29,931 nucleotides of DNA, taken from positions 1 through 29,931 of the IMG/VR virus record IMGVR_UViG_3300030090_002611. One strand, written 5' to 3'. This document shows, piece by piece, positions 1,206 through 25,500 of the stretch (the stretch's first letter is position 1; each line of letters starts with the position of its first letter). The position numbers and the translations under genes were made by a program. A model generated the notes under the pieces. That model searched no databases. It was given only the letters and a program-made list of their open reading frames with translations, and had not been told where the DNA came from. This stretch comes from a virus.

Positions 1206-1571
1206 ATGCGCCCTTTCGATCTTGCTTGGCTAGTTTTGAAAAATTATACTAAGCCTTCTCCTGTGATGTTACCTGAACTTGGAGAAACTGATGTAGAAAG
1301 AAACCCACCAATAAGTCAACATTTGAAAGATAATAATGAACATGGACATCCGCCAAGTTTTTTTAGAATGAGGCAGAATCCAATTCATTTTACTGATGAA
1401 GATAAGAAACATGACTTTGATAATCAGCGAGTGAAATTGATGCTTGCAAATCTGTTTGCTACTGGACCTCCATACGCTCGCCCTAACTTACCTCCACCTG
1501 CTGGCATGGGGGAATTAACTACAGAAGATACTGAACAATACTATTCAGGCGATAGACAACCACCGATGTGA
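1206..1571 (+). CDS. Tagged hypothetical protein (PFDLAWLVLK N-terminus)
   Basis: Unrecognised 121-residue hydrophilic protein, first of the rightward accessory block. Residues 3-12 read PFDLAWLVLK, the founding copy of a peptide that recurs at the N-terminus of many neighbours. The rest is rich in Pro, Asn, Asp and Glu, with no membrane segment and no recognised domain, and ends in a Pro-rich tail. The following gene starts six bases beyond the stop, and the TGA stop forms part of its Shine-Dalgarno, so the two are probably translationally coupled. The body shares no obvious similarity with the other tagged proteins. Confidence 0.75.
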   Translation: MRPFDLAWLVLKNYTKPSPVMLPELGETDVERNPPISQHLKDNNEHGHPPSFFRMRQNPIHFTDEDKKHDFDNQRVKLMLANLFATGPPYARPNLPPPAGMGELTTEDTEQYYSGDRQPPM

Positions 1572-1576
1572 TACCT

Positions 1577-2071
1577 ATGCAACCTTTCGATCGTGCTTGG
1601 CAACTTTTGAAGAGTTATACTTCAAAGCCTGCTCGCACTCTTAACGAAACTGATAGACATGTAAGGTTGCATCGAGTTGCTGGTAAGGAAAACTTAGGTT
1701 TACCTTTGACATTAACAATGGAGGACCTTACCGATTTACAACCAAGGCCCGCCGAGTTTGAAAACCGCCAGTTCAATGTAAAGAACATCGATGATGAAGA
1801 CACTAGAGGTCGAGTAAGAGATACTTACCAAGAATTAGAGCCTGCTAACTTTAGCACTGGTGATGATATGGGGCGACGACGAGCCGCAAGTGAAAGAGGG
1901 GCACGAGAAGAGGATTCTGATGATTTCGATTACAGGCCAACAATAGATGGGATGCGTGTAAATGAGAGTGAGGCTTTCCCAACACTTTCCAATGACGACA
2001 TGGACCCTCGCTTAAAGTACCCTTATCCAAAGGATGCTAACAACCCCGGTGACTTTGCAGGTGGATATTAA
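1577..2071 (+). CDS. Tagged hypothetical protein (PFDRAWQLLK N-terminus)
   Basis: Unrecognised 164-residue acidic, hydrophilic protein. The ATG at 1577 is preferred over the in-frame GTG at 1568, because GTGATA then serves as Shine-Dalgarno and the protein begins MQPFDRAWQLLK, like its neighbours. After the tag come Arg/Lys-containing residues up to about 40. A largely disordered-looking Asp/Glu/Arg-rich body follows, with a Tyr/Pro-rich end. The first 24 bases of the gene are identical to those of the next gene, although the bodies differ, which points to duplication or exchange of the 5' module. Confidence 0.75.
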   Translation: MQPFDRAWQLLKSYTSKPARTLNETDRHVRLHRVAGKENLGLPLTLTMEDLTDLQPRPAEFENRQFNVKNIDDEDTRGRVRDTYQELEPANFSTGDDMGRRRAASERGAREEDSDDFDYRPTIDGMRVNESEAFPTLSNDDMDPRLKYPYPKDANNPGDFAGGY

Positions 2072-2085
2072 GGACAGTGACACCC

Positions 2086-2340
2086 ATGCAACCTTTCGAT
2101 CGTGCTTGGATGGTTTTGAAAAACAATCCACATATACCGGAGTTCAAATATTTCCCTCGTGGGCATCGTGCTCTTGCGAGAGCGACGGAGTATGCACAGC
2201 CGCCGCTAAGAGGGGGGCCATTTTACCTAACAATGCCAAGACCTACTCCTCCCCCTGAAAATTACGCTCATCGTACTGAACAGATGCCGGCAAGCAGCGA
2301 AGAATACATGGAAGAGTTGAAACAAGGGAATAGTGAGTGA
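2086..2340 (+). CDS. Tagged hypothetical protein (PFDRAWMVLK N-terminus)
   Basis: Unrecognised 84-residue protein starting MQPFDRAWMVLK. The ATG at 2086 sits nine bases after an in-frame GTG inside a GTGACACCC spacer, the same arrangement as in the preceding and following genes. The body is Pro/Arg/Tyr-rich (residues about 15-65), with an acidic C-terminus. No domain is recognised. Its 5' end is almost a copy of that at 1577, while everything after codon 8 differs. Confidence 0.7.
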   Translation: MQPFDRAWMVLKNNPHIPEFKYFPRGHRALARATEYAQPPLRGGPFYLTMPRPTPPPENYAHRTEQMPASSEEYMEELKQGNSE

Positions 2341-2345
2341 TACCC

Positions 2346-2567
2346 ATGCGACCAATAGACAATGCTTGGATGATATTGAAAGACGAAAATGCTACTGCGA
2401 AGAAGGCAATCATCGATTGTCTCAAGCGTGAGGGTGGTGCGGCCAGCGTGGGTGACTGCGCTAAGGCTTGTGGGCTGTCCAATTCTAAGTGCAAGAAACT
2501 AATTGCGTCCATGGATAATGTCAAGATACACAAGCACGGCGATGCGATATTGATGGACGGATTGTGA
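2346..2567 (+). CDS. Tagged winged-helix DNA-binding protein
   Basis: A 73-residue protein with the tag variant MRPIDNAWMILK followed by a compact winged-helix-like domain. Residues about 18-30 (AKKAIIDCLKREG) suit helix 1. Residues 36-58 (SVGDCAKACGLSNSKCKKLIASM) suit a helix-turn-helix, and residues 59-73 (DNVKIHKHGDAILMDGL) suit the beta wing. The fold is inferred from pattern, not from a search. It may bind viral or host promoters. Carrying the same N-terminal tag as presumed cargo proteins raises the possibility that it is delivered with the virion. Its stop overlaps the next start (TGATG), indicating coupling. Confidence 0.7.
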   Translation: MRPIDNAWMILKDENATAKKAIIDCLKREGGAASVGDCAKACGLSNSKCKKLIASMDNVKIHKHGDAILMDGL

Positions 2568-3004
2568 TGCAGCCTTTCGATCAAGCGTGGATTTTATTGA
2601 AAGCGGGACCATATGCCCGTAGAGGTAGTATGACAGGTGTGCCTGAAAAATTAACGCAGAATAGATACAGGACACTTGATGCTGAAGGTAATTTAGGTTT
2701 CCTTGGTCCACAGCATAACGACATGGAAGCGCATGAAGTGCTGCCATTATTAGCACAAAGAGGGATGAGCGAAGGTAAACTCATTGACACACATGGAGCC
2801 GCCCCGTATGTGCCTAAAATGATGCATAGTTTCAAAGATGGGCAAGTGGTTAGTGCTATGCATACCGAAGGAGTTAATGACCCGAATAGTACTTTCGCTC
2901 AAAGTACTCCGAGTGTTGAAAACAGAGGCAAAGGTGCTCAGTTCGACTATTATGGAGAACTACCCATGTCTTTTGAAGAGTTTGCTAATTACACGACAGA
3001 GTGA
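2567..3004 (+). CDS. Tagged hypothetical protein (PFDQAWILLK N-terminus)
   Basis: Unrecognised 145-residue soluble protein starting MQPFDQAWILLKAGPYARRG. The ATG overlaps the previous stop, and a GTG one codon upstream is less likely given the conserved MQPFD start. After the tag and a short basic stretch, the body is mixed alpha/beta in composition with no Cys and no membrane segment. It contains a repeated 'Q-x-T/S-P' flavour near residues 112-118 and an acidic C-terminus. No family is recognised. Confidence 0.75.
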   Translation: MQPFDQAWILLKAGPYARRGSMTGVPEKLTQNRYRTLDAEGNLGFLGPQHNDMEAHEVLPLLAQRGMSEGKLIDTHGAAPYVPKMMHSFKDGQVVSAMHTEGVNDPNSTFAQSTPSVENRGKGAQFDYYGELPMSFEEFANYTTE

Positions 3005-3147
3005 TGCTCCCTGACCCCGTTGAACTGACAGGCCTGCCCCTTTGGTTATTATGCGTCATACTGGGTTTGGTTTCATTTTTTGTGACACTATTTTGGCCGA
3101 GAGAAGAGCCTCCGATAATTGTTGACTTAGGGGCATTTGAACAGTAA
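3004..3147 (+). CDS. Small single-pass membrane protein
   Basis: A 47-residue gene whose ATG overlaps the preceding TGA (TGATG), so translation is probably coupled. Residues about 10-31 form one strong hydrophobic segment (GLPLWLLCVILGLVSFFVTLFW), followed by PREEPP and a short soluble tail. The basic/acidic distribution suggests the tail faces the cytoplasm. No family is recognised. A role in the host membrane during infection or lysis is possible but unsupported. It has no copy of the AW-LLK tag. Confidence 0.55.
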   Translation: MLPDPVELTGLPLWLLCVILGLVSFFVTLFWPREEPPIIVDLGAFEQ

Positions 3148-3179
3148 AACTTAACTTCTGAACATCCTTGGGAGTCAAC

Positions 3180-3341
3180 ATGACACGCTGCACCCTGTTA
3201 GACGAGTGGTTCGACCACCAGTCATCGAGGTTAGATCGTGTTGAGAAAGAAACTGGCATTGAATTCGTAACTGGTGAGAAGTTATCAGCCAAGCAGTTAG
3301 CGTGGCGCAAAGTAATGAAGACCCTGTTTTTCTTGAAGTGA
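3180..3341 (+). CDS. Small charged hypothetical protein
   Basis: A 53-residue frame beginning MTRCTLLDEWFDHQSSRLDRVEKETGIEFVTGEKLSAKQLAWRK. It starts 32 bases after the previous stop, with GGGAG about six bases upstream, and ends six bases before a coding-compatible spacer to the lyase gene. The sequence suggests two or three amphipathic helices and a hydrophobic C-terminus (MKTLFFLK). It has no recognised domain. It fills an otherwise empty gap and has natural composition, so I judge it real, with moderate confidence. Confidence 0.5.
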   Translation: MTRCTLLDEWFDHQSSRLDRVEKETGIEFVTGEKLSAKQLAWRKVMKTLFFLK

Positions 3342-3359
3342 TAGACATGGGTGGGGCTG

Positions 3360-4208
3360 ATGAAGAAGATTTCAATTTACGAAGTCGGCCCTCGTGATGG
3401 ATTGCAGACAATCAAGAAACTCGTGCCGACTCGGATGAAGCGGGCGCTAATCGATGCACTTAGGGGCGCAGGCTTGCGTTCTATAGAAACTGTGAGTTTT
3501 GCTCACCCGCTTTATGTTCCTCAGATGGCAGATGCTGAGAAGGTTTTCGATGGGCAGGGGGCTGCGCTTGTTATGAATCAGCGTGGAATGGACCGTGCGA
3601 TTAAGTCAGGAGTCACTTACTTCAACATTGTATTCTCTCCGAGTGAGGAGTTTAACAGGCGTAACCTTGGTTGTGAACTCAACGAGGCGATTGCTAGGTA
3701 CGCTTTCATGCTTGAGGGTATACCAAAGGCCAATGTTCGTGTCTATATATCGTGCTACTTCGGTTGTCCTTACGAAGGCAACATCCCTATGGGCAAGCGT
3801 GTCAGGGCGATTCAGGCTGCGAAACTGTTTGGCGACACTGTGGTTTTGTCAGATACAGTTGGGACTGGCACTGAGCATGAGGTTGAGGTCGCTGCAGGTA
3901 TCTGTGAGAAGATAGGTATTCGCCCTGCGCTTCACCTTCACCACCATGCAGATCGTGAACTGTATGCTCTTTCACTGGTTCGTAAAGGTATTGAGTGCGG
4001 CATCGATGAGTTTGATTCTAGTATTGCTGGCTTAGGGGGCTGTCCGTTTGTAGAAGGGAGTCCCGGCAATTTGGCAACCGAGTCACTAGTCAACTGGTTG
4101 ACCGCTAGGGGTTACGACTGTGGCGTGTCTATAGATGACCTTGCCAACGCTAAGCGTATTGCTTTGAAGATAGCAGAACCTTCTTTAGCCCAAACCCTGT
4201 CGGTGTAG
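3360..4208 (+). CDS. Hydroxymethylglutaryl-CoA lyase-like enzyme
   Basis: DRE-TIM metallolyase, 282 residues, most like HMG-CoA lyase, which cleaves HMG-CoA to acetoacetate and acetyl-CoA in leucine and ketone metabolism. The N-terminus gives EVGPRDGLQ (Arg12-Asp13, catalytic Arg and metal Asp). Others are SFAHPLYVPQMAD (46-58), CYFGCPYEG (132-140), SDTVGTG (164-170), the HLH metal pair (His192, His194), GLGGCPF with catalytic Cys228, and GN (Asn237). All key residues appear intact, and the length is slightly short of typical bacterial lyases. The ATG at 3360 is chosen over the GTG at 3351 because a GGTGGGG purine run then precedes it. It is an auxiliary metabolic gene among tagged accessory genes but has no tag. 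A related acyl-CoA lyase activity is possible. Confidence 0.88.
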   Translation: MKKISIYEVGPRDGLQTIKKLVPTRMKRALIDALRGAGLRSIETVSFAHPLYVPQMADAEKVFDGQGAALVMNQRGMDRAIKSGVTYFNIVFSPSEEFNRRNLGCELNEAIARYAFMLEGIPKANVRVYISCYFGCPYEGNIPMGKRVRAIQAAKLFGDTVVLSDTVGTGTEHEVEVAAGICEKIGIRPALHLHHHADRELYALSLVRKGIECGIDEFDSSIAGLGGCPFVEGSPGNLATESLVNWLTARGYDCGVSIDDLANAKRIALKIAEPSLAQTLSV

Positions 4209-4210
4209 TC

Positions 4211-4603
4211 ATGGCGAGTCCTTTTGAACAGGCTTGGGTGTTGTTGAAGAATGAAGGCGAGATGCCTATGCAGAATAACTACCCTCAAGATCCTCCGGGC
4301 ATGAGGTCACCACCAGTTGAGTTCCCACCTCCGGGGATGGAAAGCACTACTCCGCCCGCACTTGCTCTTCGCAAACCGCCAATAGGTAACTTAGTTTCTT
4401 CGACAGGTAGATTATCAGATATACCTTTAGCAGAGCAACAAGAAGGTATGATGAAGCCAGTTCCGCCCGATCGCCCTTCTGTCAGACCTGACCTCGCTGC
4501 TAAGTTTAACTTCCCTCTAACTAGTGAGCAATTTGAAACTCCTCAAAGTGCTGATAAACGCAAGGAAATGCAAAATGCAAATAGAGGCTTTAATGAATAC
4601 TGA
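4211..4603 (+). CDS. Tagged proline-rich hypothetical protein (PFEQAWVLLK N-terminus)
   Basis: Unrecognised 130-residue protein starting MASPFEQAWVLLKNEGEMPMQ. After the tag it is strikingly Pro-rich (residues 20-60 contain many PP and PPG steps), then Pro/Arg-rich, then ends in a hydrophilic Asn/Lys region. It is probably extended and disordered. It starts two bases after the lyase stop, so it belongs to the same transcript. The body is unrelated to the other tagged proteins. Confidence 0.75.
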   Translation: MASPFEQAWVLLKNEGEMPMQNNYPQDPPGMRSPPVEFPPPGMESTTPPALALRKPPIGNLVSSTGRLSDIPLAEQQEGMMKPVPPDRPSVRPDLAAKFNFPLTSEQFETPQSADKRKEMQNANRGFNEY

Positions 4604-4612
4604 GGTGAGCAA

Positions 4613-4768
4613 ATGCCTCGTAAACCAAGTCCTGCTTGTAATGCATGTGGGCACCAACCTACTAAGCGACTGTATACGAAGTATAACAGTGTACAGCGTG
4701 GTGTTGCTTGGATGTGTCCTAAGTGCCAACATATTCAGTTGGATAAGGAAACAGCCCTATATATTTGA
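4613..4768 (+). CDS. Small zinc-ribbon protein
   Basis: A 51-residue gene, MPRKPSPACNACG...WMCPKCQHIQLDKETALYI. Two CxxC knuckles (Cys9/Cys12 and Cys35/Cys38), separated by a 22-residue basic loop, form a classic zinc ribbon. A good GAGGTGAG Shine-Dalgarno lies five bases before the ATG, and the gene begins ten bases after the previous stop. Such mini-ribbons in viruses bind nucleic acid or a polymerase subunit. The specific role is unknown. Confidence 0.7.
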   Translation: MPRKPSPACNACGHQPTKRLYTKYNSVQRGVAWMCPKCQHIQLDKETALYI

Positions 4769-4876
4769 ATTGTTTCAGATTGACCGGCCCGGACACTACA
4801 CCTCCGTGAAACTTCGACACTTTCTCTCTCAATGACGCTTTCGCTCATCGTCATGCTATCCCGGTGAAAGGGCCAC

Positions 4877-4886
4877 CTTTATTTTC
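4877..4886 (+). promoter_or_regulatory. Possible TATA element for a leaderless transcript
   Basis: The 138-base gap before 4907 contains CCTTTATTTTC centred about 26 bases upstream of the ATG. No Shine-Dalgarno precedes that ATG, unlike most genes here. Together these fit an archaeal promoter producing a leaderless mRNA. A weak GGTG/CACC inverted repeat just before it could terminate the preceding transcript. Both calls rest on spacing alone. Confidence 0.3.
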
Positions 4887-4906
4887 TACATCTGCGTCAG
4901 CGTTAC

Positions 4907-5098
4907 ATGACCGGATGCGAGTGCGGGCACTGTGTTGGTATGGGTGCAGCGTTTGATTTCTTAGAAAAGAAGTTGTGTCCGGCTGGCAAAGCAGCAGCAA
5001 AACGCAAGTTCAAGGTCTACCCTTCAGCCTATGCAAATGGTTGGGCAGTGCAGTACTGCAAAGGTAAGTTCCGAGGTAAAAAGGGGAAAAAGAAATGA
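4907..5098 (+). CDS. Small basic Cys-rich virion-type protein (DUF5872-like)
   Basis: A 63-residue basic protein. Residues 4-9 are CECGHC. The centre reads LCPAGKAAAKRKFKVYPSAYANGWAVQYCKGK, which I recognise as the 'KFKVYPSAYAN-W' motif widespread in small basic proteins of marine phages and large viruses. The C-terminus is a run of Lys/Gly. The function of this family is not established, but the composition suits nucleic-acid or virion association. Its stop overlaps the next start (ATGA), and the next gene belongs to the same kind of basic-protein family. Confidence 0.75.
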   Translation: MTGCECGHCVGMGAAFDFLEKKLCPAGKAAAKRKFKVYPSAYANGWAVQYCKGKFRGKKGKKK

Positions 5099-5691
5099 CG
5101 GTGGAGAAAAACCTCAACCGTTGGTTCAAAGAAAAGTGGGTTGATGTTTCCCGTAAAGATCCAAAGACCGGCAAGCATCCACCCTGTGGGCGCAGTAAAG
5201 CCAAGAAATCTAGTAAAGGCTACCCTAAATGTAGACCCAGTGTTAAGGTTTCAAGTAAAACTCCAAAGACTTCAGGTAAAATGTCCCAAGGGGAAAAGCA
5301 AGCGGCAACTAAAAGAAAGAGGTCCAAGAAGCAAGGAGTGGGTGGGAAGCCCACCGTTGTGAAAAGTGGTGAACTAAACTTGGCTCCATTTGACGAAGCA
5401 TGGGATTTGCTCAAGGCAAAGAAGAAGTCTAAGCCGTTTCACGGATATAACCCTAACAAGCACAGCAAAAAAGGTGGACTGAACGCCAAAGGTCGTGCCG
5501 CTGCAAAGCGCAAGACCGGCGCTAACCTCAAGCCACCCGTTACAACTAAACCTAGCAAACTCAAAGCCGGCTCTAAGAAAGCAAAGCGTCGTAAATCATT
5601 CTGTGCCCGCATGACAGGAGTAAAAGGACCGACTTCAAAGAAAGGTAAACTGACACCAAAGGGTGCGGCATTGAAAAGGTGGAACTGTTAA
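5095..5691 (+). CDS. Basic two-module protein with internal PFDEAWDLLK tag (DUF6321-like)
   Basis: A 198-residue, very basic protein. Residues 8-50 (WFKEKWVDVSRKD...HPPCGRSKA...KGYPKCRPS) and 126-198 (GGLNAKGRAAAKRKTG...KRRKSFCARMTGVKGPTSKKGKLTPKGAALKRWNC) match modules I know from marine-virus basic proteins of the DUF5872/DUF6321 kind. Their function is unknown, perhaps DNA condensation. Residues 97-107 (APFDEAWDLLK) are the block's tag, placed exactly between the two modules. A GGTGA and a TTG at 5380 just upstream of the tag could start a separate 102-residue product. This looks like a fusion of an untagged and a tagged gene. Confidence 0.8.
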   Translation: MTVEKNLNRWFKEKWVDVSRKDPKTGKHPPCGRSKAKKSSKGYPKCRPSVKVSSKTPKTSGKMSQGEKQAATKRKRSKKQGVGGKPTVVKSGELNLAPFDEAWDLLKAKKKSKPFHGYNPNKHSKKGGLNAKGRAAAKRKTGANLKPPVTTKPSKLKAGSKKAKRRKSFCARMTGVKGPTSKKGKLTPKGAALKRWNC

Positions 5692-5903
5692 TGACCTCAG
5701 TTTGGCTTATGCATGAGGCTTGGCAGTTACTGAAAGCCAAGAAGGATGCGCCAAACTATAGAAAGGCAACTGGTTCAAAGAAGTGTGGTAACTGCAAGGC
5801 TTGGGACTCGTCAAAGACTGACGACCCGATGACTGGTTACTGCAAGTGGTACGATTTTACTTGTCGAGCCGATCATGTTTGTGACGCTTGGGCTGGTGAG
5901 TAG
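5691..5903 (+). CDS. Tagged small Cys-rich protein (HiPIP-like pattern)
   Basis: A 70-residue protein. The ATG at 5691 overlaps the previous TAA and is preceded by GGTGGA. Residues 1-18 (MTSVWLMHEAWQLLKAKK) hold a variant tag in which HEAWQLLK is kept but PF is lost. The remainder has four Cys in a KCGNCKAWD...GYCKWYDFTCRADHVCDAW arrangement. It resembles small iron-sulfur (high-potential-like) or zinc modules seen in phage proteins. The metal cannot be told from sequence. Confidence 0.7.
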   Translation: MTSVWLMHEAWQLLKAKKDAPNYRKATGSKKCGNCKAWDSSKTDDPMTGYCKWYDFTCRADHVCDAWAGE

Positions 5904-6572
5904 ATGTCACCGTTTGAATCTGCTTGGCTTTTGTTGAAAAGGCAGACAGAGTTGGGTGAGTTCCACCCTTGGCTTCCATCATCTCATGGCGAGGCCACTT
6001 GGTATCACGGTACTTCTACAGACCATGCTAAAGGTATAAACGAAAAGGGACTTCTCCCCGGTACAAGGCAGGCTATCACGGGGCGAACAGACTTTACAGA
6101 CGAAGGTGTAATCCCTGACGAAGAGCAACTTCTCGATGCCTCTACACCCGCTGCTGCATTCATAACTCCTAGTAAACAGAGTGCAGAGATGCATGCGTTT
6201 TTTGGACAAAACGCTAGAAATGCCCTTGGTAGCAAGGGTGGAAAAGGAATGGTAGGTATCAGAGCAAAGGGTTTAGCGGAAGCAGTAAAGAGAGGAGAAA
6301 TCAATCCACATACAGGTGAGCCACTTCAAACGGTACCACTTGCTGAGAATACTTATGGAACCATAAACCAAGGTGCAGTCGGTATCGCTGGAGGAATACC
6401 CCGCAAGTATACGACACCTGTGATGCCTAGTATGATATTTGGGCACGACCAAGAAAAAATAGACTACAACTTGAACTCTCCATATGCCTTTGCTGGTTAT
6501 CAGCAACCCATGCCGCTTGATTGGTCGGGTTACGGGTATAATCAAGACCAAAACTTTCCTGATATGATATAG
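5904..6572 (+). CDS. Tagged ADP-ribosyltransferase-like protein
   Basis: A 222-residue protein starting MSPFESAWLLLKRQTE. GGTGAG plus the previous TAG stop precedes the start. Residues 33-51 (WYHGTSTDHAKGINEKGLL) match the first motif of the PARP/KptA-type ADP-ribosyltransferase fold, with His35 as NAD-binding candidate. Residues 82-100 (PAAAFITPSKQSAEMHAFF) suit the second motif, and GGIPRKYTTP (163-172) suits the third strand. The C-terminal ~45 residues are Tyr/Pro/Asn-rich. By analogy with T4 Alt, a virion-carried transferase that modifies host proteins at infection, a tagged enzyme of this type would make a natural injected effector. The fold call comes from motif recognition only. RNA 2'-phosphotransferase activity is an alternative. 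Confidence 0.6.
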   Translation: MSPFESAWLLLKRQTELGEFHPWLPSSHGEATWYHGTSTDHAKGINEKGLLPGTRQAITGRTDFTDEGVIPDEEQLLDASTPAAAFITPSKQSAEMHAFFGQNARNALGSKGGKGMVGIRAKGLAEAVKRGEINPHTGEPLQTVPLAENTYGTINQGAVGIAGGIPRKYTTPVMPSMIFGHDQEKIDYNLNSPYAFAGYQQPMPLDWSGYGYNQDQNFPDMI

Positions 6573-6608
6573 GGGAATGACTTTCAAGTATGACTCTATA
6601 GACTGAGC

Positions 6609-6848
6609 GTGGCCGATGACGATGTGCCAATACAACCCACCGACTGGTGGGCTAATGTTTTGACAGCAATGACAACTGTCAGTTTTGAAGATTTGACTAA
6701 ATTAGAAGGGGATGCCGACAAGCATACCTCTTGGACTGATTTGGCACACCTAATGGTAGTTGCCGACCATCACCAGTTTTTACAACATGCTTATGAGCAG
6801 CGCAAGCGTGGGATGCTACATGTGGAGTTCATCATCGATACCGACTGA
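6609..6848 (+). CDS. Small acidic hypothetical protein
   Basis: A 79-residue frame, MADDDVPIQPTDWWANVLTAM..., beginning at GTG 6609. It is the first start after an in-frame stop, and no clear Shine-Dalgarno is visible, so the start is uncertain. A nine-codon frame at 6577-6606 ends just before it and could couple translation. Composition is acidic, with Trp/His-rich helices and no recognised domain. Its last 29 bases overlap the next gene in another frame. Confidence 0.5.
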   Translation: MADDDVPIQPTDWWANVLTAMTTVSFEDLTKLEGDADKHTSWTDLAHLMVVADHHQFLQHAYEQRKRGMLHVEFIIDTD

Positions 6849-8118
6849 GGCTGCTTGGGCAGTACTCAAGCGGGACGATATGAGTTCCTTGCCTCCTGAA
6901 TTAGAAAGCACATTGCAATCTTTTTATGAGCAAATCCCTGACGAGCAACAGGAAAAGTTGGAACAATTAGGCCAAGCCATTGAAAGGATGGAGCCTGAAA
7001 CTAAGCATAAAATCAAAACCATGCTTATGCAAACTATAATGCATAACGCTGACAAAATGCCCGATATTCTACAAGATGCCGACCCGTCCAGTCTTTTTGG
7101 ACTTCAGCAAACTGAGCCGGGTACATTCAAAGTGGATAGTGCCCCTGTAAAGAAAGCACTCTTTGTGCCGTTACTAATTGGTGCGGTGTTTGCTGCTGAC
7201 GGTATTAATCAAAGTCAAGGAGCCAAAGCCAGCATAGTTGGTAATGGTTTGATGCACACTGGTGCGGCGTTGGGTTTGAATGACCCACCTAAAACTAGTG
7301 CATTTGAATATGAAAGCGATGTGGCTTCATTTCAAGATCCATTCCTTGGTATTGAATTGGGCCGTGTAGAGAACCCTTCGTGGTGGCAAAGGGCAGGGGC
7401 TGGAGTAGTAGGTGCATTACAAGGCTTATCTTTAGGTGCACTTTCTCTCAAACCTTTGAGAGCGAGAGGCAGTCGAAAGTTATCAGATATTCAAGCAGAT
7501 CGTGCTGAAAAGATTAGAGATAAAACTTTTCAAGGTCCAAGGCGTAAAGGTCTAAGAGGCATTATGGATAGAAAGCAACAAGAAGCACTTTCAGATAAGG
7601 CTTCAAGACTTGAAGCAAGTTCTAAAAGATTTGCTGACAAGGCTGCTAAACCGTCAAGTCGAGGTTTAGAAGGTGCACGAAGAGTAGGGCAAGTAACGGC
7701 TGGCGACCCAAGAGCCAAGGAAGCGGTTGCCCCTTTTATTGCAGGCGCACTTAACACTGGTGGTAGTCCTAACATTTCAGGCACAGCAAGTGCAACTCCT
7801 TCGGGAGGAGCAGCGGGTACTGGTGTTAGCGGGGTAGGTAACCGTGCGGCTATGGGGCATGCTGACAAACAGATTTGGCAAGGTCAAGAATGGAGCGGTC
7901 AGCACGGCCAAACAAAGAAAGGTGATAATATGAAAATTGGAGAACAACTTTTGAAAGAAACAAAGGAACGAATGGACAAAGCACATTGCATGGGTGACAC
8001 TGAAAAGAAAGGTGACAAAAAAGGTAGTAAGAAACCTGCTCATGGTATGATAATTGTGCTTGGTGCACAAGGTACAGGTCCGGGTCCTTCAAAAGACGGT
8101 AAGCGTACAAAAAAGTAA
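6820..8118 (+). CDS. Ala/Gly-rich hypothetical protein with tag-like N-terminus
   Basis: A 432-residue protein. The ATG at 6820 gives MWSSSSIPTEAAWAVLKRDD, a degenerate copy of the tag. Longer in-frame starts lie entirely inside the preceding gene. Residues about 20-90 are an acidic helical stretch. Residues about 105-125 (KKALFVPLLIGAVFAADG) and 190-210 (AGAGVVGALQGLSLGALSL) are hydrophobic and could enter a membrane. A long Arg/Lys/Ala coiled-coil-like region follows (220-310), then a Gly/Ser/Thr-rich linker and a Lys-rich tail. No family is recognised. An internal virion protein with membrane-active segments is one possibility. It is the last member of the tagged block. Confidence 0.7.
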   Translation: MWSSSSIPTEAAWAVLKRDDMSSLPPELESTLQSFYEQIPDEQQEKLEQLGQAIERMEPETKHKIKTMLMQTIMHNADKMPDILQDADPSSLFGLQQTEPGTFKVDSAPVKKALFVPLLIGAVFAADGINQSQGAKASIVGNGLMHTGAALGLNDPPKTSAFEYESDVASFQDPFLGIELGRVENPSWWQRAGAGVVGALQGLSLGALSLKPLRARGSRKLSDIQADRAEKIRDKTFQGPRRKGLRGIMDRKQQEALSDKASRLEASSKRFADKAAKPSSRGLEGARRVGQVTAGDPRAKEAVAPFIAGALNTGGSPNISGTASATPSGGAAGTGVSGVGNRAAMGHADKQIWQGQEWSGQHGQTKKGDNMKIGEQLLKETKERMDKAHCMGDTEKKGDKKGSKKPAHGMIIVLGAQGTGPGPSKDGKRTKK

Positions 8119-8191
8119 TGAAGTGTAATTCGGTTGTTACAGAATCATTTATGTGATACTATAATTTCCCCGTAACAGAGAGGGACCTTTT

Positions 8192-8749
8192 ATGTTAAGT
8201 AATTCTACCCCGATGCCCGAACACGATCAGAGCGAAATTAGATTGATGGGATTAATCCTAATGCAATCTATGTCTATTGGATTAGCCGTTGGAATATTTA
8301 ATGCCGAACTTTGGATTGATTTGAACGACCCTATGGTTAATGGTGTTACATATTCTATGGCAGCGTTTGCTGTACAAGGTCTTGCTTATTACATATTCAA
8401 GATGTTTTTCCAACAGGGTATGGACGACAAAGCAAGGATGGCAAGTATGGAGAGAGAACGCAGAAACCGCTACCGTTCTATGGAAGTCAATTTTGATAGT
8501 CGCCGTCAAGACATGGAAATGCGTATGCAAGAAGCACAACTTGAAGCGGAATTAAAGTGGATGGAAGAAAATCCCGGCAAGACTCCGCCTTGGGTGCAAC
8601 AAAGAATGACACAACCTCCTTCAAACTATTCGGACTTTATGCCTAATACACCTATTAAAGAGCCATTAAGTCTAGGTTTAGACTTTAATCCTGAAGAGAA
8701 TAAGAAAAGAATCCGTGGCTCTGATGGCAAGTTCAAGAAGAAGGAGTGA
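8192..8749 (+). CDS. Two-helix membrane protein with coiled-coil tail
   Basis: A 185-residue protein preceded by GAGAGGGA seven bases upstream. Residues about 17-38 (LMGLILMQSMSIGLAVGIFNAE) and 52-74 (YSMAAFAVQGLAYYIFKMFF) are hydrophobic. Residues 78-130 are a charged Met/Arg/Glu-rich coiled coil, followed by a Pro-rich stretch and a basic C-terminus. It opens a tightly packed six-gene operon running to 11640. A TATA-like CTATAATTT about 30 bases upstream may give the operon its own promoter. No family is recognised; it is a candidate membrane partner of the GTPase encoded downstream. Confidence 0.75.
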   Translation: MLSNSTPMPEHDQSEIRLMGLILMQSMSIGLAVGIFNAELWIDLNDPMVNGVTYSMAAFAVQGLAYYIFKMFFQQGMDDKARMASMERERRNRYRSMEVNFDSRRQDMEMRMQEAQLEAELKWMEENPGKTPPWVQQRMTQPPSNYSDFMPNTPIKEPLSLGLDFNPEENKKRIRGSDGKFKKKE

Positions 8750-8755
8750 TTCTCC

Positions 8756-9004
8756 TTGGGCCGTATCTTCAAAACTCCTTCTGACGATGCTGTAGAGGAA
8801 ACTTTGAGGAGTATGCACATTGCTAACACTGTTGATGTAGCGTATGAAAGAGGTATGGGCTGGGTTAAGGTGCTAGTGTTTTCAACAATTACTGCGTTTG
8901 TAGTAAGTGCTTTTGAGTTTTATACAGATTGGAACTTGTGGGAATCCAGCGGCAATTGGTTAAAGAATAAACTTGCAGAGTGGTCCAACTCTATTTTTGA
9001 TTAG
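8756..9004 (+). CDS. Small single-pass membrane protein, TTG start
   Basis: An 82-residue protein. The TTG at 8756 is chosen because AAGGAGTGAT, which includes the previous stop, stands about nine bases upstream, and the next in-frame Met would remove 19 residues. Residues about 37-57 (WVKVLVFSTITAFVVSAFEFY) form a membrane helix, with amphipathic aromatic sequence on its C-terminal side. The next gene, the GTPase, starts eight bases after the stop within an AGGTGATATT Shine-Dalgarno context. No family is recognised. The placement suggests a membrane anchor for the GTPase. Confidence 0.7.
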   Translation: MGRIFKTPSDDAVEETLRSMHIANTVDVAYERGMGWVKVLVFSTITAFVVSAFEFYTDWNLWESSGNWLKNKLAEWSNSIFD

Positions 9005-9012
9005 GTGATATT

Positions 9013-9735
9013 ATGTCTATGATGGGTGGCTCTGCACTTGTTGGTGGTATGGTATTTGCTAAAGAATTGTGGCACTATTGGGTTCCAAGGAAGGTTGGAG
9101 TATATGGCCCTCCTATGACAGGTAAGACCACACTCGATAGATTTATGACAACTCCGGGTGAGATGGAAGATATACCTGAAGATGAACGCACTAAGCATTT
9201 TAGAATCCCCGGTATGAATCGATTTTTACTTCCTCGACCTACACGCAAGCGTGTGAGTTGGAAGGGAGATAAGCGTGTAGTTTATTCTGCTGACATCGGG
9301 GGAGATGAAAGATTTTGGAATCTTTGGATAGACGATATGGTAAATCGCAATGTAGAGGCTGTATTATTTATGTTCGATGGGAGAGCACTCAAAGGAGGGA
9401 GTGATGCTATTCAGGCAGTTGGTGGATTCAAATATTTAGTTGACGCTATCATTCATCGCCAATATCGTTATCGTGGTTTAAGATCTTGGTTAAGAGGCAA
9501 AAAGTATTGCCCTAAAGTAATCATGCTTGTTGCAAATAAAGCAGATGAGTGGTGGGATGAAACTGCCAATGTGCTTTGGCAGCAACAACGCTTAGGTGAA
9601 CACAAGATGTTCGACCCTTTTAGAGAAGATTTAATTAGACTTCAAAAAGCAGGAGTACCCACAAGAAGGGGTATGATGGCTACAAAAATCGGTTGGAATG
9701 TAGAAAATACTATGATTGATATATTGACAATATGA
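9013..9735 (+). CDS. Ras/Arf-like small GTPase
   Basis: A 240-residue P-loop GTPase preceded by AGGTGATATT. G1 is GPPMTGKT (32-39), G3 is DIGG (94-97, the DxxG motif), G4 is NKAD (175-178), and TKIG near 224-227 is a possible G5. The N-terminal 20 residues are hydrophobic/Gly-rich and may lie on a membrane. The insert before G3 is long and basic, and a Trp/Arg-rich region (145-165) follows. The arrangement resembles SRP-receptor-beta/Arf-type GTPases more than translation factors. A viral gene of this sort is rare. It sits between small membrane proteins, so a membrane-bound switch, perhaps for assembly, entry or host manipulation, is a reasonable inference without direct support. Confidence 0.8.
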   Translation: MSMMGGSALVGGMVFAKELWHYWVPRKVGVYGPPMTGKTTLDRFMTTPGEMEDIPEDERTKHFRIPGMNRFLLPRPTRKRVSWKGDKRVVYSADIGGDERFWNLWIDDMVNRNVEAVLFMFDGRALKGGSDAIQAVGGFKYLVDAIIHRQYRYRGLRSWLRGKKYCPKVIMLVANKADEWWDETANVLWQQQRLGEHKMFDPFREDLIRLQKAGVPTRRGMMATKIGWNVENTMIDILTI

Positions 9736-9748
9736 GGAGAGATAAAAT

Positions 9749-10738
9749 ATGGTAATGAATTTTGGATTTGGAGGCTCAGGAAGAGTGCCTAGAAATGATG
9801 CTACTTTAGCAAATATGAGTGATGCGCATTTAATGGCGCTGGGGCAACAAGGTAATGCAAGTCACGCTCAGTTATTAGAAATGCAAAGCGCACAGCAGGG
9901 TATGGCTAATATTGCTGGTAAACAGAATATAGAAGTGCCAAAGGTAAACTTCTATCCAAGTAGGCACCCTGACCCAAGAAAGGCAAGAAAGCAAGATATT
10001 AAGCAAGCAAGAAGATTGTTGACTCCGACTAAGCGTAGCATTTTTAATCCGCTTCGCTGGGTATGGGGTAGGAAGTACAGATACAATCGAAAGAGTAGTC
10101 TTTGTGTTATTGATGGCACTGATTGTGAAGAGTTAATCAAGTACGATAATTTGTACGCTAAGATTTGCGATGAAGAAACAGGTAAGAGTCTTTGGGAAAT
10201 GTATTGGAAAAACCCCGTAACTGGTGAACCGGAAGCATTTGTAGCAAGGGAACAGGTTACTAATGGTCGTAAAATGAAAGGTACATACTGCCCTGAGCAT
10301 CTACACCTGTACCACTTATTATGTAAGTGGGAAGCAGAAGCCGACAAAGATCATAATAAAACAAAAACTGGTATGAAAGAGATGGTTAAAAAAGGAGTCA
10401 GTACAATTGCTGTACCTATTTCTATTATCAAGAAAAAAGACAATACTCCTGAGTTGCTTAAAAAATACGAGCCTTTCTTTGTAGAATTAGAAAAGGATTC
10501 TAAATCTCAACCCGGTATTAGTTTATTACATTACAAGAATCCTGAAACAGGAATAAATGATGTTACAATGATTGTATTTGATTTGAGATTATTCCAACAA
10601 GAGATACTTGCACAGCAACCAACACTGGCAGATGCAATTACAAATCTTGGAATAATGCAAGCACAGGCATTAGACAATGGAGTTATCAACTCAGAGGTAG
10701 TGGCACCAGCAGAGCAGATGCAGTTACCACAACAGTAG
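9749..10738 (+). CDS. Hypothetical protein with Cys/His cluster
   Basis: A 329-residue protein with a good GAGGAGAG Shine-Dalgarno before ATG 9749. Residues 1-60 are low-complexity (Gly, Ala, Gln, Met). Residues 70-115 are strongly basic and aromatic (RKARKQDIKQARRLLTP...WVWGRKYRYNRK). Residues about 118-195 contain five Cys and nearby His (LCVIDGTDC, KIC, YCPEHLHLYHLLC) that could bind zinc. Residues 215-285 look alpha/beta. The C-terminus is Gln-rich. I do not recognise a family. It is likely a partner of the GTPase operon or a virion component. Confidence 0.7.
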   Translation: MVMNFGFGGSGRVPRNDATLANMSDAHLMALGQQGNASHAQLLEMQSAQQGMANIAGKQNIEVPKVNFYPSRHPDPRKARKQDIKQARRLLTPTKRSIFNPLRWVWGRKYRYNRKSSLCVIDGTDCEELIKYDNLYAKICDEETGKSLWEMYWKNPVTGEPEAFVAREQVTNGRKMKGTYCPEHLHLYHLLCKWEAEADKDHNKTKTGMKEMVKKGVSTIAVPISIIKKKDNTPELLKKYEPFFVELEKDSKSQPGISLLHYKNPETGINDVTMIVFDLRLFQQEILAQQPTLADAITNLGIMQAQALDNGVINSEVVAPAEQMQLPQQ

Positions 10739-10748
10739 GTGAGTAAAA

Positions 10749-11393
10749 ATGGGATTATTTGGAAACAACAATACGCAACAAAACGGAGCATTGTCATTAG
10801 GTGCTAATGCACAAACTAGTACACAATCTAACTTTGTAAATCCTTTTGCACCGCAACAGCAACAAGGCTTTGCTCAAAATGGAATGACACAAGGTTTCAT
10901 GGCAGGTATGGGGATGAACCAACAACAAATGGGAATGATGGGTCAACCTATGACTCCTCCAAGCGAAGCAGAAATACAACTCGCTTTGATGAAAACTTTA
11001 GCACCTATGGATAGGTTCATCGGTAGTGTACAGATGGCTACTATGCTTCAGTTACTCAATGACCTTGTTAGTTTTTCAGTGTTAGAGATTTTGAAGAATG
11101 CAGTTTTCGTTATCAATGAAGATGACGGCACAATGAAAATGGACATTACTTCTTTACCAACTAACCTTCAGACTATGAGCGCAGAAAATGTAACAGGTCA
11201 ATTCAATGCTTTGCAGATGGCAAGTCAGCAAAACATTCAGCAAGCAGAGATGCAGCAGCAACAAATTGCTGCTCTTGCTCAGCAGAGTATGATGGGTGGT
11301 GCATTGAATGCAGCATTGCAAGATGAAGGACTTATGAACAGGGTCAGCGGTAGTGCTGGGCAATTTATGGGTAAAATGATGGGGATGAGATAA
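10749..11393 (+). CDS. Gln/Met/Gly-rich hypothetical protein
   Basis: A 214-residue protein; TAGGTGAGTAAAA gives a clear Shine-Dalgarno. Residues 1-70 are Asn/Gln/Gly/Met-rich low complexity. Residues 72-135 form a helical core (LALMKTLAPMDRFIGSVQMATMLQLLNDLVSFSVLEILKNAVFVIN). Residues 150-190 are a Gln-rich helix, and the end is Gly/Met-rich. There is no Cys and no recognised domain. The composition resembles phage structural or internal virion proteins. The next gene begins two bases after its stop. Confidence 0.7.
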   Translation: MGLFGNNNTQQNGALSLGANAQTSTQSNFVNPFAPQQQQGFAQNGMTQGFMAGMGMNQQQMGMMGQPMTPPSEAEIQLALMKTLAPMDRFIGSVQMATMLQLLNDLVSFSVLEILKNAVFVINEDDGTMKMDITSLPTNLQTMSAENVTGQFNALQMASQQNIQQAEMQQQQIAALAQQSMMGGALNAALQDEGLMNRVSGSAGQFMGKMMGMR

Positions 11394-11394
11394 T

Positions 11395-11640
11395 ATGATA
11401 CCAAGAGAAATGCCAATGATAGGATTTGCAAGTAGCACAATGGCTATATTTGCACCAAAGAAAAGCGTAATTGTAGATATGGTAATGGTGCAGTTGTTAT
11501 CTGTAATAGTTACACTCGGTACAGTTTTATTAACAGCATCGGGTGAGTTGTCTAGTGACACAATGGCTTACTTAGTTGCTGGACTTTTCGGAGCCTTCTT
11601 TATGCTCGGTAATGTTTATTCCCGCATCTCTAATGTCTGA
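11395..11640 (+). CDS. Small two-helix membrane protein
   Basis: An 81-residue protein, last of the operon. Residues about 26-50 (VDMVMVQLLSVIVTLGTVLLTASG) and 57-76 (MAYLVAGLFGAFFMLGNVYS) are membrane helices joined by a short loop with SSD. Size and topology would fit a holin, but most small viral membrane proteins look alike and no lysis enzyme is seen nearby. Its last 69 bases overlap antisense with the end of the leftward gene. Confidence 0.7.
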   Translation: MIPREMPMIGFASSTMAIFAPKKSVIVDMVMVQLLSVIVTLGTVLLTASGELSSDTMAYLVAGLFGAFFMLGNVYSRISNV

Positions 11641-11910
11641 CGACTCTACATGTTGGCCCCATTTTTTTAGTGGGCATTCGCTAGATCTAAGTGAGGCTTT
11701 CACTCTCATTTGACAGCCGCATTCAGTGCATCGATTACTAGTGTGTTCCCAACTTGGGCACACCATACAGATGTCCATTCTTATTTGTTTGACATCGTTG
11801 GGCACAAACCTTCTCAAGAATATATCCCTACCCGCTTTAGTTAGGTTTTTTGCAGTGTCTATAGACACGGGTACGCCCATAATTTTAGGTGTCGCACGGG
11901 GCAACCTCAT
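11572..11910 (-). CDS. Zinc-binding hypothetical protein (DUF6171-like)
   Basis: A 112-residue leftward gene. Residues 48-84 read CMVCPSWEHTSNRCTECGCQMRVKASLRSSECPLKKW, the Cys pattern C-x2-C-x9-C-x2-C-x-C-x12-CP-x2-kW. I recognise this from small phage proteins of the DUF6171 type, so this is a real gene and not a shadow. The preceding basic helix (KAGRDIFLRRFVPNDVKQIR) is also typical of the family. Function is unknown. It is transcribed against the late genes and overlaps the 3' end of the membrane-protein gene. It is divergent from the small-terminase candidate, which starts 61 bases away. Confidence 0.75.
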   Translation of the reverse strand: MRLPRATPKIMGVPVSIDTAKNLTKAGRDIFLRRFVPNDVKQIRMDICMVCPSWEHTSNRCTECGCQMRVKASLRSSECPLKKWGQHVESSDIRDAGINITEHKEGSEKSSN

Positions 11911-11971: not shown

Positions 11972-12673
11972 ATGGGAGGCGAGCGCCAAACTAAGAGATC
12001 CTGTCCTTTGTGCCAGCACGAAGAGCGTGATAGACTTGAAAGTGGGCTGGCCGATGGTTCTATAGAACCGAGGCAGTTAGACAAAGAAATGGGTTGGCGA
12101 ACCAATACTACAGAGCGCCATGTAAGAAATCACATGGGTAGTTATAGCGACTCTGCTAACCATACATGTGTAGTCTGTACTAGCGATAATCGCAGAGCAT
12201 ACGAAGTTGCATACTTTGAAGATGAAACTACTACTGAAGAAATTGCGGCAGAGTTAGGTTGTAGCGAAGAGTTAGTTTACAAACACATGAAAAATCATTT
12301 CCAACCTCTTGTAAAAAGAAGTGCAACTGCAGTGGTGGCAGTAAAGGTCGGAGAAGAAGTAGATATTCTAAGAAACAATGTACAAACTCTGAATGGCAAG
12401 TTAGCACAGTACATGGATGAAACTAGCCTTCACGATGACGGCGTTATATCCGACATGGTGAAACTTCACAAAGAAGTCAGAGAAACTCTCAAGGATTTAC
12501 ACAAGTTCCAAGAAACTTGGTCCGAGCCAAACAAGGCAGTTGCTAACAATACAATCAATATCTTGAAGGTTGAGTTAGGTAAAGAAAGTCCTGAAACTTG
12601 GAAGAGAGTCAAAGAAAAGTTATTATCTCAGGCTGACGGCGAACTAGATGAGAATATACTGGATGTGATTTGA
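11972..12673 (+). CDS. Candidate terminase small subunit with tandem zinc-HTH modules
   Basis: A 233-residue protein. The ATG at 11972 is chosen because coding composition begins there, and the upstream extension lies antisense to the zinc gene. Residues 11-54 (CPLC...HVRNH) and 66-109 (CVVC...HMKNH) form two modules with identical spacing, C-x2-C-x35-H-x3-H. Each contains a helix-turn-helix (LDKEMGWRTNTTERHVRNH; IAAELGCSEELVYKHMKNH). Residues about 125-215 are helical and may oligomerise. A DNA-recognition protein of this kind near terL fits the small subunit that selects viral DNA for packaging. A transcription regulator is the alternative. No Shine-Dalgarno is visible. Confidence 0.65.
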   Translation: MGGERQTKRSCPLCQHEERDRLESGLADGSIEPRQLDKEMGWRTNTTERHVRNHMGSYSDSANHTCVVCTSDNRRAYEVAYFEDETTTEEIAAELGCSEELVYKHMKNHFQPLVKRSATAVVAVKVGEEVDILRNNVQTLNGKLAQYMDETSLHDDGVISDMVKLHKEVRETLKDLHKFQETWSEPNKAVANNTINILKVELGKESPETWKRVKEKLLSQADGELDENILDVI

Positions 12674-22574: not shown

Positions 22575-25500
22575 TTGATTGAAACTCCTTTAGATACTCT
22601 CACCCTTCGTAGAGAAACATTTGTCAAATCTCTATACGATGGTATAGGTTTGACTGAGGCTGCTCAAGAATATCTTGAGGCTCACTTTATTGTAACCAAG
22701 ATGGATATTTATTACAATTCAGTTTACAATGAAGAAGCACTTCTTATGATTGCGAAGCAAGAAGGTGAAGAGTATCAGATGGGCAGCGGAGGCATATATG
22801 GTGTGGATTATGCTGGATTAGGTACTCGTTCTGCGACAGAGTATGTTGAACCGGGTACAAATCGAGATATACAAGGAGATCAGTTTACCGGCCAAAGATT
22901 GCTATTTGATACTAAATACATGAGGGATGTTCGTGCAACAAACTTTGATAATGCCCCTTCGCCAACAACCCCTGTAAAAAACAATCACTACTTTCAATCT
23001 GAAAACAATCCTATGATGGGCACTGTTACGCACACATTTTCAGATGGAAGGCAGGAAAAAATACCTGCTTGGTATGCTAGTCTTTTGAATTACTATACAG
23101 TGTCAGACGATGATGAACACCATGCTGGTATGTCAAGAGCAGAATATGATAATGGACGAGTAAAGGGTTGGTTAGAAGATGGCAGAGAACTTAGAACAAG
23201 AAATGTTGCTAATATGCGTGGTATGCTAAACTCACTTTCTACTAACCATGGTTCTAATTTTCATAGACTTAAAGGATTAACAAGTTATGACCTAACTCCT
23301 TTGCAAAGGGTTGAGCAACATTATGATGAAGTTATGAATGGTGATTTCACACTAAAGGATTATTTTCATGGATTTGAAGGGCTTGATAAAAAGCAAAGAG
23401 AAAACATATATCAGCACCTTTTGAAAAACGGTTACGATGATATTCACCACCATTTAGACGAAGGTGGAATACATAGCGACCAAATTAGATTCAGTTTAGG
23501 TTTGAGATTAAAACCTCTTATGGATTTCTTAACTAGAAGTAGTGCTCATTCTTCTGACAACCATATGCCCGACACAGAAACTGCAGCGGCTGAACATGCT
23601 GAAATCCCAAACCATGTATGGGACTCTATGTTTATGGGGGATAAAGAAAGGTTGCATCGTAATGTGTATCGTCTACTCGGTCTTGATAAACAAAACGAAG
23701 GGAGAATAAAAGAGCAAGCAGCAAAGATGATGGAGAAAAACCTTTCTTTGTCTTATGATGATGCTTTAGCAGAAGCAACTATGAGTGACATGCTTAGGTA
23801 TGATATGTTTGAGTTTGATAATAAAACTAACACATTTAGTATGGACGAGTTAGGTGGTATTCCAGCAAAGAACTTTGTTGATTGGCACAACAACAAGGCC
23901 ACCTCAAGAAATCTTTCAAGAAGTGGATTTTATGCAGCAGTGGGTTGGGATAATTCAAGAGGTAAACATTACGAATATGATAAGAAAACTGGTGAAAATC
24001 TTAGTCCGGTAGAAGGCTTTGAACATTATCCAAGTGTGTATCGACACTTTAACGAAAATAAAGTTAAAGAAATTGAAGGTCGTATGAAAACGGGCAAAGA
24101 TGCCATTTACGATGGTACACATATGCGTAATCAGGCTATACCTTGGATGAATAGGTTAGTCGATTTAACAAACTTAGGCGACTTTATGGGTGGAGATCAC
24201 AGAGGTTTCAACCACATGTTTGCAGAAATGTTTCAACATGGAGGAGGCCATCACTTAGATTTGAATAATGCTCTTAGAGTAATCGCTCCGATATTCCACC
24301 ACATTTCGACAAAGGAATCTTCAGTAGGTCTACCCTCCGAATACGGAGAAAACTTGTTGTTTGATATAGAGCATCCTGAAATGTATAGCCGCAGGTCTTA
24401 CATAGACGAGGACCCTGACAAAGACTTGTATTACATTGGTCCCAAAGAAGAATATAGAGATGGTAAAAAAGCCTTGTCTACATCAAATGCATTGGCTTGG
24501 GCGGGCCAGCCTCAGTTGACTAGGTTCTTCCATAATGTGTATGATGAAGATGATTGGGACAATTATACTGAAAAATTAGCACTTTGGAGTGCTTCGGGTG
24601 GAGAAACAAGTGGTGTTAGCAAACCATCTAAACCTACACCTAAGAAAAAAATAATGCGCTCTTTGGGTAGCATTCCTCATGCGCATATGCCTAATACTGA
24701 AAAGGGCAGAATGAGCGAACAGTGGGAAAGAAAATTAGCAAGAAGAGCGGCCTTACAAGAAATGGCAGAGCAGATTGAGCCATCTGCACATCTATCTCAA
24801 TATGTATCACGCTATCGTGGATATGCAAGAGGAACAGGCGGTTTGCCAAAGGGTAGCAAGGGTGTAACTCATTCTTTTGATTCTTCAAAGTATAATCAAG
24901 ACCACGACAAGTTACATATGAGGTCAACCAATCCTAACAAAGATCGTATGGGTAAAAGAAGGTTAGACGGGCAAAGTTCAATCGAAGGTGAATATGAAGC
25001 GATACCGGGTACTTTTGCGACACGAGGGCCGGGTACTCATAGAAAAGAAATTAGTCAAGTAGACCAACAAACTCGTGCTGACTTTAACAAAAACAAAGTT
25101 GGTTATGGTAAACATGAAATGACAGGCGCTGGTAATTCCCCAGTGTCTCCTCAAATAGGAAATGTTCTCGGTATGGGAGAAGCAACACCTTTCAACAAAA
25201 TAACAAGTGATTTACTTTCGCATCATGCTACTAGAGATGATGTTACTAGAACTAAAGAATTGAGAGATTTAAGAGATAACGCTATACAAAGAAGAAATCA
25301 GCGTTACAAATTAATAAATCAGGCTGAAAGCAAACAGCGTGAGTTAGAAGAAAAAATGAATACTTTACCTTCTAATGCTTATGAAGAAAGAGACAATTTG
25401 ATACGAGAATGGCGTGAGTTAGATGGGCAATTGTCTCAATATAAACAGGGCAATCCTCATAGTAAACCCAAAGTTCCATCTACTCGCTCATTGGAGGCAA

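Follow-up and report, generated by a model that had tools for sequence, protein, structure and literature searches.

Why should a virus carry a Ras-like small GTPase, and why should the gene for it stand among genes for membrane proteins? The question is raised by a block of six genes at positions 8192-11640 of the IMG/VR virus record IMGVR_UViG_3300030090_002611, which we analysed over its 29,931 nucleotides (hereafter the window). An initial annotation, made from the letters of the DNA, had described the block as an operon joining a GTPase to membrane proteins. Comparison with relatives shows that the block is a real and universal feature of one virus lineage, new in its composition, with a divergent representative of a known superfamily at its centre.

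The six genes

The block consists of six open reading frames (ORFs) on the same strand:

8192..8749, plus strand: gene A, 185 amino acids (aa); N-terminal membrane hairpin, long basic/acidic coiled-coil-like segment and disordered C-terminal tail with an LSLGL motif
8756..9004, plus strand: gene B, 82 aa; one membrane helix, conserved cytosolic-type N-terminus (FKTPxDD..ETLRxMHxxN..D) and Trp-rich C-terminus
9013..9735, plus strand: Ras-like small GTPase, 240 aa; N-terminal helix at residues 4-23 (motifs, conservation, AlphaFold2 model and Foldseek matches below)
9749..10738, plus strand: gene D, 329 aa; soluble Cys/His protein with a zinc-site-like CVVDGCDC...TYCPEHLHLYH, basic central segment and Gln-rich C-terminal tail
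10749..11393, plus strand: gene E, 214 aa; Gln/Met-rich protein with an N-terminal LSLGA motif
11395..11640, plus strand: gene F, 81 aa; two-helix membrane protein with a conserved VIVDMVMVQL

According to the ORF calls the genes are separated by 6, 8, 13, 10 and 1 bp, exactly the range of 1-13 bases first reported. Single-sequence searches of Pfam, PHROGs and the PDB returned no significant family for any of the six window proteins.

Conservation of the block

Among viral contigs we found 143 relatives of the GTPase. Every locus selected in this way that extends far enough has the six genes in one and the same order, with a gene for a helix-turn-helix (HTH) protein and then TerL behind them. 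Because these loci had been chosen by their GTPase, the link was tested anew with contigs chosen by TerL. All such contigs with enough upstream DNA carry the complete block, both in the near set and in a deeper branch whose TerL is about 52% identical to that of the window; those that lack part of the block are all too short upstream of TerL to hold the missing genes. The proposed operon is thus upheld, and its absence from relatives, which would have spoken against it, was looked for and not seen: the block is present wherever the flank suffices. Records selected by their major capsid protein (MCP), using a halovirus-led alignment, provide a further sample, in which all 18 records that have a TerL of the lineage type and extend about 10 kb upstream of it contain the GTPase. 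A distant record (G071), with a partial and weak TerL match, has no GTPase; nor was one found in complete haloviruses of 102-104 kb with a related MCP, and the annotation of HVTV-1 places other genes upstream of its TerL.

Purifying selection acts on each of the six genes, with dN/dS values of 0.03-0.14 (0.04-0.05 for gene A), as it does on TerL (0.05-0.07). Between distant clades the GTPase is about 60% identical, TerL 52%. The mean column identity of the GTPase (77% over 47 sequences), the dN/dS values and the recurrence of the block in all relatives with enough flank together mean that the arrangement goes beyond chance. Without exception, the HTH, TerL, portal and protease genes follow downstream of the block. 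The first of these, in the window, is as follows:

11975..12673, plus strand: HTH protein (small-terminase-like), conserved directly downstream of the block; weak HTH and small terminase matches in Pfam and PHROGs

Its start is most likely the ATG at 11975 and not the GTG at 11726 given by the ORF finder (the median length in relatives is 226 aa).

Two further observations concern the distribution of the block. A large deeper branch (L255 and other TerL-selected loci) falls outside the top GTPase matches and has the same block. The sole matches in genomes (L082 and L083) are contigs from metagenome-assembled genomes (MAGs) of Maricaulis and Cytophagaceae; bearing an archaeal-virus block inside unrelated MAGs, they look mis-binned.

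The GTPase: motifs and fold

The initial annotation reported intact G1, G3 and G4 motifs, which in the window read GPPMTGKT, DIGG and NKAD. These motifs are conserved in relatives; the catalytic Gln is not. In an alignment of 47 sequences, from which all column conservation was taken, the P-loop (G1, GxxxxGK[ST]) has G37, K38 and T39 invariant and G32 in the majority; D94 and G97 of the G3 motif (DxxG, here DxGG) are invariant, as are all residues of G4, N175-K-A-D178. Two features had been missed. A G5-like segment, MATKIGWNVE in the window, recurs as MAT[RK]IGWNV in nearly all relatives, with A223-T224 invariant, and an invariant R59-T60-x-H62 fits switch I. T60 stands 22 residues past K38 and is the candidate switch I (G2) Thr, a position assigned from spacing only. 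At the position of Ras Gln61, counted over 112 distinct sequences, Q occurs in 55, E in 44, D in 12 and H in 1; the window has Asp. Several true families of the Ras superfamily lack the catalytic Gln after G3. From the motifs, GTP binding is likely; efficient unaided GTP hydrolysis is uncertain.

Sequence comparison places the protein only loosely. A Pfam search with the window GTPase gave nothing good (DO-GTPase2, E 0.048), and a scan of the 47 members gave weak matches to Roc (20 members, best E 8e-4), Arf, MMR_HSR1, RagA and Ras. A profile search of the PDB with the alignment yielded E values of 0.4 or worse, the top hit being a chance match to acyl-CoA dehydrogenases, and was set aside. 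The AlphaFold2 model (mean pLDDT 75, pTM 0.76) has a mixed sheet and helices ordered as in a small GTPase, plus two additional helices, one at the N-terminus (4-23) and one in an insert (156-164). Compared to the PDB with Foldseek, it matches Rab, Rho, Cdc42 and Ras with E values of 1.5e-7 and down, probability 1.0 and target TM scores of about 0.5-0.63, in agreement with the Ras-like identity first proposed. The combination of strong fold matches and weak sequence matches means that the Ras-type assignment is sound and the sequence very divergent: judged by its modelled fold, the protein belongs to the Ras superfamily.

Against predicted viral structures, the Foldseek matches with E <0.001 are GTPases of giant viruses of eukaryotes, and no match to the GTPase was found in INPHARED. 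Both results fit the earlier statement that small GTPases are rare in viruses of prokaryotes.

The partner proteins, a promoter-like element and inserted genes

Membrane helices were sought by hydropathy in a 19-residue window, with 79 relatives for comparison. Two, one and two helices had been proposed for A, B and F. This holds for B, with a single helix at 37-55 (hydropathy 1.77), and for F, with helices at 29-47 and 56-74. In gene A one helix is strong (18-36, 1.94); a second peak is clear in 68 of the 79 relatives but falls below threshold in the window's own copy. D and E have no membrane-type helices, E having one borderline stretch. For D, neither profile nor fold gave a match in the PDB; its model is of low confidence (pTM 0.48) and its Foldseek matches (E 1 and worse) carry no meaning.

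A short motif, [LIM][NST]LG[LVA], is found in the C-terminal tail of A in 64 of the 79 relatives (LSLGL at residue 159 in the window) and near the N-terminus of E in 63 of the 79 (LSLGA at residue 15). Shuffling leads one to expect about 1, in a test inflated by the relatedness of the sequences. That two otherwise unrelated neighbours keep the same motif suggests a common binding partner for the tail of A and the N-terminus of E.

Upstream of the block lies one further element:

8140..8162, plus strand: promoter-like element CAGAATCATTTATGTGATACTAT, with a TATA-type box TTTATG at 8148-8153, at -44 from the start codon of gene A

Boxes of the form [TC]TTA[TA] occur at -62 to -22 of gene A in 52 of 59 distinct relatives (shuffled mean 19, maximum 31) and cluster at -44 to -41. 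For the other genes tested the box is upstream in 4-10 of 62-66, and the window contains no other strong copy of the element, which looks like an archaeal BRE/TATA promoter.

The gap between the GTPase gene and D exceeds 60 bp in over half of the relatives, and nearly all such gaps hold an extra small gene. In most relatives from L037 on (L037-L080), about half overall, this is an AbrB/MazE-like gene of 54-74 aa (MazE family, Pfam E 8e-4). The window and its own subclade lack the insert, and in L034 and L035 it is likewise missing from a gap of 87 bp. Downstream of F, on the opposite strand, a DUF6171-like gene is found in 40 of 80 loci; in the window it is a Cys-rich gene (CPx..CxxCGC..CP) at 11572-11910, minus strand, with a weak match (E 0.0098).

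The virus lineage

The closest long relatives of the window (G001, 109 kb, and G002, 115 kb) carry a chaperonin gene and two modules of opposite orientation: one for replication, with genes for PolB and for PCNA-like and RFC-like proteins (the latter two named from reading N-termini), and one for morphogenesis, comprising TerL, portal, protease, MCP and a long tape-measure-like gene. Their MCP is of HK97 type and nearest to haloviruses of the Druskaviridae (33% identity); their PolB is nearest to haloviral PolB. A chaperonin was found in 22 relatives and is of thermosome type in each of them, with no GroEL type above the cut-off. At 3351-4208 the window has an HMG-CoA-lyase-like gene (PF00682, E 9e-23) with relatives in many loci; an HMG-CoA lyase gene has already been reported in magroviruses.

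The described features of magroviruses of Poseidoniales (PMC10768690, PMC12999244) agree with this lineage, as does the thermosome-bearing magrovirus clade 1 of Nishimura et al. (PMC5332604); GroEL is assigned in the literature to other clades of magroviruses. The window thus agrees with a thermosome-bearing lineage of tailed magrovirus-type viruses, matched to magroviruses (Magrovirales) by their descriptions, and the host is presumed to be Poseidoniales. The idea that all magroviruses carry the block was dropped, every chaperonin-bearing relative being of thermosome type.

Two other observations were made in the window. Nine otherwise different proteins encoded at 1206-8118 share A-W-x-[LIV]-L-K, mostly N-terminally and often as P-F-D-x-A-W-x-L-L-K (9 found, 0.06 expected in shuffles); the motif recurs in G001 and G002 and may serve as a tag for head targeting or packaging. 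At 28343 there is a gene for a prohead protease. Between portal and protease, at 22575-28337, a protein of 1920 aa is encoded, in which residues 1499-1585 weakly resemble an ATP-dependent DNA ligase (E 6e-4).

What does the block do?

The initial annotation had suggested a GTP-controlled membrane machine, for example for genome entry, vesicle-like assembly or a change to the host envelope, a reading that is partly supported. The constant place of the block beside packaging and head genes argues for a role in virion assembly or exit; a position upstream of HTH, TerL, portal and protease genes is what would be expected of a morphogenesis function. Selection on the block is also as strong as on TerL. 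We therefore tentatively favor, at somewhat short of an even chance, the view that the block is a core, membrane-anchored, GTP-switched platform for virion assembly or exit, belonging to the late programme of the lineage. A, B and F would reside in the host cytoplasmic membrane, where the GTPase, in one nucleotide state, would dock by way of its N-terminal helix and its partners. D and E would act as soluble effectors or scaffold, recruited to the membrane site in one nucleotide state, and GTP binding and hydrolysis would toggle the site, allowing ordered virion assembly or the release of particles at the membrane. The sequences show the genes, the predicted fold, the gene order with its conservation and position, and the promoter-like box; that the GTPase docks, that a complex forms and is switched, and that it serves assembly or exit, is inferred. 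The wider proposition, that a GTP-switched membrane machine is an essential stage of assembly or exit across an archaeal tailed-virus lineage, a coat- or tether-like use of the Ras family without described counterpart, is rather doubtful.

Several points weigh against an assembly or exit platform. The position of genes is indirect evidence of timing and function. The catalytic Gln gives way to Asp or Glu in half of the family members, so hydrolysis may need help in trans or be absent, and no GTPase-activating protein (GAP) or guanine nucleotide exchange factor (GEF), roadblock proteins included, was found. The motif shared by A and E was assessed by counting related sequences as independent.

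A late module is equally where lysis genes might be expected, and F, with 81 aa, two helices and a charged C-terminus, is holin-like in size and topology; scans with Pfam and PHROGs identified no other lysis genes in the window. F and A could then act as holins or envelope disruptors, with the GTPase setting the time of lysis or of a change to the host envelope. The same databases give no holin family match, however, and the sequence of F is unusually conserved and specific (VIVDMVMVQL), unlike the degenerate pattern of holins. To our knowledge a GTPase and two conserved soluble proteins do not occur in lysis cassettes, and we consider this explanation unlikely. Small GTPases are usually signalling switches, which raises the possibility that the protein rewires host processes or blocks superinfection and that the gene order is historical; the AbrB-like gene that joins the block in about half of the relatives would suit such a role. 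Genes for takeover or exclusion are usually patchy, whereas the block is invariant across deep branches and its GTPase better conserved than TerL between distant clades. Signalling or host takeover accordingly seems improbable.

A role at the start of infection is distinctly unlikely. Some of the six products would be packaged and act in the host membrane when the genome is delivered, and the block does adjoin the cluster of genes with the A-W-x-L-L-K motif, whose products are putative packaged internal proteins. The motif is absent from all six proteins, however, and the block has its own promoter box; moreover, tailed virions do not usually contain integral membrane proteins.

Switches of the Ras family, so characteristic of membrane traffic in eukaryotes, are sparse among prokaryotes. 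In the present case an abundant lineage of marine archaeal viruses has one as a core gene, linked to genes for membrane proteins and for packaging and the head. If the block is indeed a platform for assembly or exit, it would open a first way to study how the host membrane serves viruses of the uncultured Poseidoniales as a site of assembly or a route of exit, and would be a simple example, from prokaryotes, of membrane work under GTPase control.

Comparison with known systems

No described viral system matched the block in the libraries and papers searched. The word "GTPase" does not occur in those papers searched that mention magroviruses, and the accessible descriptions of named magroviruses report none; mention elsewhere is possible, most subscription papers being closed to search. 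In general terms, and by description, the nearest kind is Rup, the prokaryotic Ras-superfamily GTPases of Wuichet and Sogaard-Andersen (2014, PMC4316618), a paper that mentions no virus. Like Rup, the viral protein is a single-domain Ras-like GTPase that keeps the Asp of DxxG. Rup group 1 also lacks the Gln of G3 and is encoded beside membrane and coiled-coil proteins (PMC4316618), but there the loss of Gln is uniform whereas the viral position varies between Q, E and D. The group 1 neighbors (an OmpA-type protein, a kinase and a diguanylate cyclase) are absent, with no such Pfam match among the block proteins. The MglA family was rejected: its roadblock/MglB partner (PF03259) was found in 0 of 23 relatives, most of them longer than 90 kb, and a G3 without Asp would be expected (the criterion of PMC4316618), but D94 is invariant.

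Arf, Sar and SR-beta share with the viral protein a DxGGQ (present in half of the viral family) and a helix before the G domain, and 9 of the 47 members have weak Pfam matches to Arf. In contrast to Arf, there is no Gly2 myristoylation site (residue 2 is Ser in the window and non-Gly in most relatives), and the best Foldseek matches are Rab and Rho. The Rab and Ras proteins of giant viruses are likewise virus-encoded GTPases of Ras fold (PMC11915834 and the BFVD matches); a role in forming the virion membrane has been suggested for the mimivirus Rab, as cited in PMC11915834. They differ in coming from unrelated viruses and hosts and are 11-18% identical in structural alignments; any parallel would be purely functional. 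Giant viruses yielded no comparable block of six genes, although no search aimed at one was made. In the rest of its genome the lineage resembles magroviruses and Druskaviridae: capsid protein, PolB, thermosome, HMG-CoA lyase and the layout in two modules are as in magroviruses (PMC10768690, PMC5332604).

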